NCBI RefSeq assembly: GCF_013403565.1
Contig: NZ_CP058627.1
Location: 1,240,001 to 1,304,000, forward strand
Direction: 5' to 3'
DNA length: 64,000 bases
From: Chitinibacter bivalviorum
GTDB taxonomy: Bacteria > Pseudomonadota > Gammaproteobacteria > Burkholderiales > Chitinibacteraceae
This document shows positions 29,156-61,389 of this stretch, piece by piece. Position numbers and translations under genes: made by a program. The notes below the pieces were generated by a model. That model ran no database searches, had not been told where the DNA came from, and was given only the letters and a program-made list of their open reading frames with translations. Numbering within the stretch: the stretch's first letter is position 1; every line of letters starts with the position of its first letter.

Positions 29156-29350
29156 ATGGAAAGTCTTTATTTATTAATTCCATTATCGCTCTTAATTGCA
29201 CTTGGAATTGGTTTGATATTTTGGTGGTTTATCCGCAGTGGGCAAACCGATGACCTAGAGGGACCCAGCTGGAGAATTCTTCAGGACGACGATACAACGA
29301 TAGAATCAACCACGCCAGGACGCACACCACAGAAAAAAAACCCTGACTGA
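29156..29350 (+). CDS. ccoS: cbb3-type cytochrome oxidase assembly protein CcoS
   Basis: This 64-residue protein has one N-terminal membrane helix (about 5-26, LYLLIPLSLLIALGIGLIFW) and the short soluble tail GQTDDLEGPSWRILQDDD typical of CcoS. CcoS is needed for heme and copper insertion into CcoN. It starts 4 bases after ccoI. The tail's D-D-L-E-G-P motif is a good family marker. Confidence 0.9.
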   Translation: MESLYLLIPLSLLIALGIGLIFWWFIRSGQTDDLEGPSWRILQDDDTTIESTTPGRTPQKKNPD

Positions 29351-29395
29351 CGCCACACAACAAGGTAAAATCGGGAAGATTGCCATTGGATTTGC

Positions 29396-29437
29396 TTGAT
29401 GTTGATCAACATTGAGTGCAGCAAGTCTGCGTATAGT
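29396..29437 (+). promoter_or_regulatory. FNR-dependent class II promoter upstream of ccoN
   Basis: TTGAT-GTTG-ATCAA (29396-29409) is a perfect FNR/ANR consensus site. A -10 TATAGT lies at 29432-29437, giving a predicted start near 29444. The box centre is then at about -41.5, the standard class II activating position. It predicts activation when oxygen falls. The next feature downstream is not a gene but a terminator-like hairpin, before ccoN. Confidence 0.85.
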
Positions 29438-29443
29438 CCAGTA

Positions 29444-29535
29444 GGCACTTTTGTACCTGGATTGGGGATGCTCTCACCCTAATCCAATAACCGCAGATGA
29501 ACTAAGCACTTAGTTTAAATGCGGCTATTTTTTTG
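29444..29535 (+). ncRNA. Candidate FNR-activated small RNA or attenuated leader of ccoN
   Basis: The predicted transcript from the FNR promoter runs about 92 bases. It holds a 10-bp hairpin (29458-29486: TGGATTGGGG / CACCCTAATCCA pairing, 9-base loop). A second hairpin with a T7 run follows at once. No ORF is visible. The layout of activated promoter, short structured RNA and intrinsic terminator is that of a bacterial sRNA such as FNR-dependent FnrS or AniS, although I see no sequence match to them. It could equally be a leader that attenuates ccoN transcription. Confidence 0.5.
29487..29535 (+). terminator. Intrinsic terminator between the FNR promoter and ccoN
   Basis: Stem ATA-CCGCA pairs with TGCGG-TAT and an inner AACTAA pairs with TTAGTT around a GCAC loop. 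A T7 run follows (29528-29534). It starts about 43 bases after the predicted FNR-dependent start and ends 60 bases before ccoN. Confidence 0.8.
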
Positions 29536-29595
29536 TTTTTCAATCTTTATTTTAATTTTAATTCCAAGCAGTTGGAGATCAATCGGAGCGCTGTA

Positions 29596-31017
29596 ATGGA
29601 AAACCAAGCCACATACAATTACAAAGTGGTGCGGCAATTTGCCATCATGACGGTCGTCTGGGGCATTGTCGGCATGCTGGTTGGCGTAATTTGCGCCGCC
29701 CAGATGTTCTGGCCAGAACTAAATATCGGGCCATACTTTCACTTTGGACGCCTTCGTCCATTGCACACTAATGCAGTTATTTTTGCTTTTGGTGGCTGTG
29801 GATTATTTGCGACCTCGTACTACGTCGTTCAACGTACCTGTAACGTACGCCTGTTCTGCGACAAATTAGCCGCTTTCACCTTCTGGGGTTGGCAGACAGT
29901 TATTTTGCTAGCTGCAATTACCTTGCCACTGGGGTATACCAGCGGCAAAGAATATGCAGAGTTGGAATGGCCAATTGATCTGCTGATCACCGTTGTATGG
30001 GTAGCGTACGCCGTTGTCTTCTTCGGTACCTTGGCAAAACGCAAAGTTAAGCACATCTATGTGGCCAACTGGTTCTACGGCGCCTTCATCCTTGCTGTTG
30101 CATTACTGCACTTGGTAAACAGTGCCGCCATGCCTGTTACAGCGATGAAATCGTACTCTGCCTATGCAGGTGCAGTAGATGCAATGGTTCAATGGTGGTA
30201 CGGCCACAATGCGGTAGGTTTCTTCTTGACCGCAGGGTTCTTGGGCATGATGTACTACTTCGTTCCTAAGCAAGCAGGTCGCCCTGTGTATTCATACCGC
30301 CTGTCTGTGGTTCACTTCTGGGCATTGATTTTCACCTATATGTGGGCCGGCCCTCACCACTTGCACTACACAGCACTTCCCGATTGGACGCAATCTCTGG
30401 GCATGGTGTTCTCTTTGATTCTGCTAGCACCTAGCTGGGGCGGCATGATTAACGGCATTATGACCTTGTCTGGCGCATGGCATAAACTGCGCACAGATCC
30501 AATCTTGAAGTTCTTGGTTACCGCCCTCTCCTTCTACGGTATGTCTACGTTTGAAGGCCCAATGATGGCGATTAAATCTGTCAATGCACTGAGCCACTAC
30601 ACTGACTGGACTGTAGGTCACGTTCATTCTGGTGCTTTGGGTTGGGTTGCGATGATCACCATCGGTGCAATCTATTACCTCATCCCACGTCTGTTTGGTC
30701 GCGAACAAATGTGGTCGGTAAAATTGATCGAAGTGCACTTCTGGATTGCAACATTGGGGGTAGTACTTTACATCTCATCAATGTGGATTTCTGGTGTAAC
30801 TCAAGGCCTGATGTGGCGCGCAATCAATACTGACGGCACATTAACTTACGCCTTCATTGATGCCGTTAAAGCGTCTTATCCGTACTACTTCATCCGCTTC
30901 TTGGGCGGCTTGATGTACCTACTTGGCATGTGCCTGATGCTTTACAACGTACTGCGTACTGTATTTGACGGCAAAGCCGTTGATGCAAAAATCCCAGCCG
31001 TTGCCGCACACGCCTGA
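29596..31017 (+). CDS. ccoN: cbb3-type cytochrome c oxidase subunit I (CcoN)
   Basis: This catalytic subunit of 473 residues carries heme b and the heme b3-CuB centre that reduces O2 with high affinity. It has about twelve membrane segments. The low-spin heme ligand is in [17 protein letters not shown], and the CuB/heme b3 histidines are in [23 protein letters not shown] and [13 protein letters not shown] start at ATG 29596; an upstream in-frame ATG at 29533 lies in AT-rich leader sequence and gives unfamiliar residues. It heads the ccoNOQP genes. Confidence 0.96.
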
Positions 31018-32777: not shown

Positions 32778-32809
32778 AAAATCGGGCAGCGTAAAAACTG
32801 CCCGATTTT
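32778..32809 (+). terminator. Terminator after ccoP
   Basis: AAAATCGGGCAG and CTGCCCGATTTT pair over 12 bp around an 8-base loop. It separates the structural genes ccoNOQP from ccoGH, so ccoGH needs a promoter or read-through. Confidence 0.85.
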
Positions 32810-60676: not shown

Positions 60677-61327
60677 CTAAGCAATAACAGCAGCAGGACT
60701 GGCTAAGCCAGCAGCAATGAAAGGGAGCAACATGTCGGCCACCAATTGTGGATCACGAGAGTTGACCATGGGCTGAGCCATGAATAAACGCAGAACGTGA
60801 TTCCCGGCAAAGGCGTTGAACATGGCGCTGGTCATAAAATGAAAGCGCCAAGCCACTTCGGCAGCGGACAAATGCGGCAAAGCGCGCTCTAATGCCGCTT
60901 GATAGCGACGCGTGAGCTCACCATAACGCTGTGGGATTTTTTCTTTCAGGATAGAATTGGGTTCAACGTAGCTGCGTGCCAGTAGTCGAACAAAGACCAA
61001 ACCGCCATATTCTGGATTGCGCCCCATCTCTAAAGCCGCCGCAATAAATGATTTGGCAATGGCCATGGCATCGGCAGCCGGTTGCGCCGCTTCTAGCTCG
61101 GTGAGCTTGGCCAGCGATAAACGCGCAAAAGGTTCGGCGCGCCGTTCAAAAACGGCCTGAAACAATCCGTCTTTTGAACCAAAATAATAGTTAACAGCTG
61201 CTATATTGACTGCTGCAGCCGCAGTAATTTGCCGCATTGAAGTACCGGCAAAGCCGTGCTCGATGAATAATACTTCTGCCGCATTCAAGATGCGGGTTGC
61301 AGTATCGGGGGATTTGACTGACTCCAT
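60677..61327 (-). CDS. TetR-family transcriptional regulator, PsrA-like
   Basis: The 216-residue regulator has a TetR helix-turn-helix: ILNAAEVLFIEHGFAGTSMRQI, then VNIAAVNYYFGSKDGLFQAVF. The AAVNYYFGSK pattern closely resembles PsrA, the fatty-acid sensor of Pseudomonas. The start has AGGAG. It heads the unit with fadE and has a PsrA-type palindrome (61370-61389) in its own upstream region, so autoregulation and control of fad genes are expected. The ligand is probably a long-chain acyl-CoA or fatty acid. Confidence 0.88.
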   Translation of the reverse strand: MESVKSPDTATRILNAAEVLFIEHGFAGTSMRQITAAAAVNIAAVNYYFGSKDGLFQAVFERRAEPFARLSLAKLTELEAAQPAADAMAIAKSFIAAALEMGRNPEYGGLVFVRLLARSYVEPNSILKEKIPQRYGELTRRYQAALERALPHLSAAEVAWRFHFMTSAMFNAFAGNHVLRLFMAQPMVNSRDPQLVADMLLPFIAAGLASPAAVIA

Positions 61328-61355: not shown

Positions 61356-61389
61356 TTGATCTAAATCAATTTCAAACGACTGTTTGAAA
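61356..61389 (-). promoter_or_regulatory. PsrA-type operator adjoining a perfect FNR box upstream of the fad cluster
   Basis: TTTCAAAC-GACT-GTTTGAAA (61370-61389) is a perfect 8-bp inverted repeat with the same core as the fadH operator. Directly beside it TTGAT-CTAA-ATCAA (61356-61369) is a perfect FNR site, 29-42 bases upstream of the TetR start. Together they suggest repression by the fatty-acid regulator and by FNR at low oxygen. Confidence 0.75.

Follow-up and report, generated by a model that had tools for sequence, protein, structure and literature searches.

To our knowledge, the known FNR-dependent small RNAs (sRNAs), FnrS and AniS, are separate genes. The closest precedent found for the locus analyzed here is UpsM of Rhodobacter sphaeroides, an sRNA produced at a leaky terminator in the mraZ leader, where read-through occurs about once in 100 (PMC5089854). 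The present locus is the leader of ccoN, encoding subunit I of cbb3 oxidase, in Chitinibacter bivalviorum; positions are those of the window, that is, the whole stretch of DNA that was analyzed (64,000 nucleotides).

The predicted ccoN leader resembles UpsM as follows: an sRNA would lie in a long 5' UTR and end at an intrinsic terminator, no promoter stands between terminator and gene, the operon would depend on read-through, and the element is confined to one lineage (PMC5089854). It differs from UpsM (mraZ/dcw) in gene, promoter type, and sequence, in being FNR-controlled with a termination that is predicted, and in the length of the leader (about 152 nt versus 268 nt; PMC5089854). With FnrS of E. 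coli and AniS (gonococcal FnrS) of Neisseria, it shares a class II FNR box (at -41.5 in E. coli FnrS), a short RNA and terminator, both predicted here, and the presence of an Hfq gene (PMC3032703, PMC4423775); in these papers, the sRNAs have genes of their own, whereas the Chitinibacter element would be a ccoN leader. The sibling sRNAs NmsRA and NmsRB of Neisseria meningitidis likewise have a hairpin whose conserved loop is rich in U and C and partly complements Shine-Dalgarno sequences; they are separate sRNA genes with demonstrated targets, whereas the Chitinibacter element is a predicted leader RNA (PMC5362039).

Promoter region and layout of the leader

The following features were located from ccoS to ccoN.

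29156-29350, + strand: ccoS (FixS; PF03597, E 1.1e-17)
29343-29371, + strand: P1, a sigma70-like site CTGACT-17-TAAAAT that overlaps the ccoS stop (promoter scan and conservation)
29396-29409, + strand: perfect FNR box TTGATGTTGATCAA (motif search and family comparison)
29432-29437, + strand: -10 hexamer TATAGT of promoter P2, 22 nt 3' of the FNR box, with a predicted start at 29444
29444-29457, + strand: 5' end of the predicted transcript, GGCACTTTTGTACC, invariant in Chitinibacter except for an extra T in C. tainanensis (alignments)
29458-29486, + strand: hairpin H1 (folding and alignments)
29486-29529, + strand: hairpin H2, a terminator-like stem (folding; terminator score D 10.1 in this genome)
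29528-29534, + strand: T7 tract, with the 3' end of a short RNA predicted at about 29534-29540
29547-29595, + strand: invariant stretch, the AT-rich part up to the ccoN start, the same in all six Chitinibacter genomes
29596-31017, + strand: ccoN (cbb3 oxidase subunit I; PF00115, E 3.2e-120)

An earlier note on this DNA had placed a perfect FNR box at -41.5, a TATAGT -10 hexamer, and a start near 29444, and the same values were obtained when these were recomputed. The start is predicted at 29444 from the position of TATAGT 22 nt after the FNR box, which puts FNR at -41.5; judged by sequence only, the gap of 22 nt is exact for a class II FNR site. The box is one of two perfect FNR boxes in the 64-kb window. 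Boxes with at most one mismatch number seven, which is not beyond chance, as 6 of 100 shuffles have as many. A total of 61 genomes were searched with intergenic DNA, matches were found in 34, and 30 loci were read. An FNR box with no or one mismatch precedes ccoN in 29 of the 30 family loci (L029 has two mismatches), which makes the FNR promoter a family trait, and at the P2 -10 site CGTATAGTCCA is identical in all six Chitinibacter genomes. In two loci from another genus of the family (L022 and L023), ccoN is preceded not by one perfect FNR box but by a pair, with 22 nt between them. The second perfect box of the window, TTGATCTAAATCAA (61356-61369), lies 28 nt before a gene for a TetR-type regulator (60677-61327, - strand) that adjoins an acyl-CoA dehydrogenase gene, a setting compatible with possible oxygen control of fatty acid metabolism.

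The earlier note had seen no other promoter for ccoN, and this part of it has to be corrected, since the conserved P1 lies upstream of the FNR box, with an inferred start near 29378. By score alone P1 is at chance level (two sigma70 sites on both strands of the region versus a shuffle mean of 2.5). A hexamer TA(A/C/G)AAT or TAAGAT begins 26-32 nt before the FNR box in all 30 family loci, and CTGACN is found 17-18 nt from this hexamer in 23; this fixed place across the family speaks for P1 despite the chance-level score. Given the position of P1, transcripts from either promoter would pass through H1 and H2. FNR at its box would occupy about +19 to +32 relative to the P1 start, and, from this arrangement of sites, FNR might block P1 while activating P2, giving tandem promoters switched by FNR. 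The simple promoter scan did not list the FNR promoter as sigma70-type, and between H2 and ccoN it returned no sigma70-type match on the + strand, where FNR boxes with up to one mismatch were likewise absent. A sigma54 promoter at the conserved GGCAC... was rejected by eye: the GC expected at -12 is missing, and L006 has a different spacing.

The element is followed on its own strand by ccoN and is accordingly not a stand-alone gene. The T7 tract ends 61 nt before the ccoN ATG (29596), so that 55-61 nt separate the predicted 3' end from ccoN. The stretch at 29547-29595 holds a small hairpin, TCCAAgcagTTGGA, and two GGAG motifs, of which the second is likely the ccoN Shine-Dalgarno sequence; its GGAG-proximal part is also conserved in other genera. 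Across three genera, hardly any change is seen in the non-coding TCCAAGCAGTTGGAGATCAATCGGAG (29563-29588), which comprises the small hairpin and the two GGAG motifs. An in-frame extension of ccoN from TTG at 29572 was discarded, as some relatives are out of frame there.

Folding and conservation of the leader

The 10-bp hairpin followed by a second hairpin and T7 that the earlier note had described was recovered by folding positions 29444-29540, with a minimum free energy of -33.1 versus a shuffle mean of -17.85 (z -4.97; none of 200 shuffles reached this value). When the part nearer to ccoN was folded as well, z was -2.99 and one of 200 shuffles did equally well. H1 has 10 bp, plus 2 at the tip; its loop sequence is UGCUCU (29469-29474), narrowed to CUCU in this genome by U-A and G-C pairs and folding as a hexaloop in the five other Chitinibacter.

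Whole-leader z-scores, which are free of borders chosen after folding (separate H1 and H2 z-scores use such borders), were -2.45 to -4.02 in all six Chitinibacter genomes, with 0-2 of 200 shuffles as good. Among 23 leaders from other genera (L024 not included), two had z below -2 (L009, -3.61; L012, -2.72). Thus, the FNR promoter is family-wide but a leader structure of this type is not, and the RNA is no family trait; leaders in other genera may be structured in their own ways, which differ from the Chitinibacter element.

Conservation of the two stems had been set beforehand as a test, and both stems were retained in all six Chitinibacter genomes, H1 with compensatory changes and H2 as a long hairpin. 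From CTGCGTATAG to GTACC, the sequence does not vary in the genus save for one inserted T in L006, and all six have YGCUCU as the H1 loop. By comparison, only 28 of 192 four-fold degenerate ccoN sites are invariant in all six, and any two Chitinibacter species agree at 44-56% of such sites (87% for L002/L003, the near pair). The kept 5' end, loop, and H1, set against so few invariant four-fold sites, indicate selection on the RNA.

Covariation in H1 was counted on five sequences (L003 was omitted because its H1 equals that of L002), using a structure written by hand after viewing the sequences. Five of the 10 pairs were changed on both sides, a number reached by 11 of 500 shuffles; none of 500 shuffles, nor any slid version, reached the covariation score, and two of 500 reached the number of cells paired, while further pair types were no better than in shuffles (304 of 500). 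With all six sequences, RNAalifold gave three pairs changed on both sides among 11 in H1. H2 folds individually into a long hairpin in each of the six (-13.5 to -19.3 kcal/mol) at a sequence identity of 20-58%, the near-identical pair L002/L003 apart. Structure kept without sequence is as expected of a terminator. RNAalifold found no common H2 for the six Chitinibacter because the sequences cannot be aligned there, and the H2 claim rests on the individual folds. We conclude that the leader of the cbb3 oxidase operon holds, behind its FNR promoter, a real and conserved RNA element that was found only in Chitinibacter.

Distribution of the element

The covariance search in related genomes that the earlier note had proposed placed the element once in each Chitinibacter genome and gave no convincing match elsewhere. 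The model R1 (5' end and H1) detected all six Chitinibacter at E <= 1.9e-15, with one strong match per genome, before ccoN; the element is small, single-copy, and well bounded. In the family search of 43 genomes, the next best match after Chitinibacter had E 0.03, and the search of 200 genomes from the order, including two Chitinibacter, gave matches at E 0.003-0.007 in four further genomes (L186-L189); both searches ran with stricter filters that lose weak matches. These four and the family matches L177 and L178 were judged to be chance, with no FNR box (up to one mismatch) within 500 nt; in L187, such a box lies about 510 nt away. BLAST with 81 nt retrieved the six Chitinibacter at E <= 3.8e-8 (next, 0.02), and a 20-mer had no match in viral contigs. 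No Rfam family matched the window at the gathering score, and the eight matches at E <= 10 were all far below the cut-offs and did not include FnrS. The earlier note had seen no similarity in sequence to FnrS or AniS.

A scan of ccoN loci from a named collection covered 74 of the 80 listed, six with short upstream DNA being dropped. Of these 74, 49 carry an FNR box with up to one mismatch within 450 nt (one of them, L061, is the same locus as L006), and the order of box, terminator (D > 0), and gene occurred in one of the 49 boxed loci listed. This locus, L090, has a very strong terminator (D 56.4) about 200 nt before ccoN, between an FNR-like box (one mismatch) and the gene; it comes from an unclassified proteobacterial MAG, and the terminator may belong to an upstream gene.

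Possible termination at H2

Whether H2 terminates transcription was scored with D, which combines hairpin and U-tract by a formula of the d'Aubenton-Carafa/Lesnik type. H2 ranked 19th of 1256 candidates on both strands of the window and was the last of the 19 with D > 10; such scores arise in the window at a rate of about 2% per 150 nt, real terminators being counted as background. D for H2 was 10.1 in this genome (L001) and 17.3 in both L002 and L003, which are near-identical, so that the three genomes with D > 0 amount to two independent cases. It was -17.9, -15.3, and -28.1 in L004, L005, and L006, where the U-tracts are interrupted, and strong termination is therefore not predicted throughout the genus. 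In the other 23 leaders, the best D was 3.3 (L012, with an unconvincing tail TTATGG). The simple terminator scan, a stricter one whose rule takes one short stem (shuffle mean 1.7), reported none at H2. A terminator in the 5' UTR with a promoter upstream and none downstream is thus a predicted layout in this genome, L002, and L003, with D < 0 in L004-L006. The intrinsic terminator claimed by the earlier note is predicted by D in three of the six Chitinibacter, this genome among them, and not in the other three or by the simple scan. We take H2 to be a putative leaky terminator, at least in some members of the genus. Elsewhere in the window, a GC-rich inverted repeat, TCGGGCAGcgtaaaaaCTGCCCGA (32782-32805), has T-rich flanks on both sides and is terminator-like on both strands (D 10.9 and 13.4); it sits between the genes taken for ccoP and ccoG.

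The main alternative to an sRNA is a structured leader that does not terminate, in which the two hairpins would serve the ccoN mRNA by protecting or shaping it (as an RNase barrier, or through stability or ribosome access) and the U-tract of three genomes would have no role. We regard this as possible, though short of an even chance. Genomes with an interrupted U-tract still retain the H2 hairpin, and the invariance of the AT-rich part up to the start codon points to mRNA-level constraints on the leader as well. However, H2 with its T7 is among the 19 best-scoring candidates of the window, and conservation of the 5' end and the loop suggests that they have a partner, which a role in stability would not require.

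The earlier note had proposed either an sRNA with read-through or a conditional terminator. The former stands, and the latter was left without an anti-terminator fold. An attenuator in which H2 terminates depending on a signal (metabolite, protein, or translation of a leader peptide) would fit the classical order of promoter, terminator, and gene, with H1 preceding H2, but we consider it improbable. Forcing the 3' arm of H2 to stay single-stranded, at a cost of 11.5-18.4 kcal/mol, brought out no common alternative fold (minimum-energy folds only). By eye, among the six Chitinibacter, an ATG at the H1 loop opens a four-codon frame in this genome only; it is GTG in four genomes and GCG in one, with frames of different lengths, and no leader ORF was seen to be conserved. 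The weak Rfam matches likewise include no known attenuator of respiration genes.

Possible targets of the H1 loop and the 5' end

The H1 loop has anti-Shine-Dalgarno character. A switch in cis, in which it would pair with the ccoN Shine-Dalgarno sequence GGAGCGC and limit translation of the read-through mRNA, was noticed after the fact and appears very improbable. Pairing of the loop octamer with the ribosome-binding site reaches -11.1 to -13.0 kcal/mol in L002-L006, values attained by 2-10 random and 13-54 permuted octamers out of 2000 each. In the species of the window, however, it is -7.5, which 184 random and 192 permuted octamers out of 2000 each attain, and genera that lack H1 conserve the same Shine-Dalgarno sequence. 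The 5' end was also considered as a partner of the ccoN ribosome-binding site, but this was dismissed, as 1874 of 2000 permuted sequences paired as well.

A search for exact complements of the 5' end supported no conserved target in trans. The early coding part of sucD has an exact 11-mer complement in two Chitinibacter genomes (G001 and G004); these are the genomes from which the near-identical leaders L002 and L003 come. This candidate was rejected because the other four Chitinibacter have no exact 11-mer (G005 keeps 10 of 11) and because G015, from another genus without the leader element, has it. Five other matches outside the leader lie in unlike contexts, as judged by eye, and were set aside. 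The Hfq gene is present in all eight genomes searched. Binding of CsrA at the two GGAG motifs was rejected, as CsrA was found in none of eight genomes; the same search was positive in three of 14 control genomes, E. coli among them.

A possible leader-derived sRNA as the best explanation

The best single explanation of the element, with about an even chance of being right in our judgment, is an sRNA made by partial termination, with read-through to the oxidase mRNA. FNR, active at low oxygen, would bind at -41.5, and the RNA would start at 29444 and carry the conserved 5' end, H1 with its YGCUCU loop, and then H2 and a U-rich tract. H2 would stop part of the polymerases, yielding a short RNA of 91-97 nt, and the remaining polymerases would read through into ccoN, such that one promoter gives both a small RNA and the oxidase mRNA. 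The 5' end or the loop may then act on other mRNAs. A more specific version, which we consider rather unlikely, is that FNR would turn on the cbb3 operon together with an Hfq-bound RNA of about 95 nt, whose YGCUCU loop and 5' end would block the Shine-Dalgarno regions of other mRNAs and perhaps its own; this would couple the high-affinity oxidase to the post-transcriptional remodeling of metabolism. Among the matches listed in the openly licensed literature (titles and abstract beginnings), none described a ccoN leader with a terminator or an sRNA.

Among the genomes searched, the promoter is family-wide and the RNA occurs in one genus; the element illustrates how a structured RNA specific to a lineage can arise behind an otherwise conserved FNR promoter. 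If an FNR-controlled sRNA is indeed embedded in the high-affinity oxidase leader, a single promoter would serve two layers of oxygen control.
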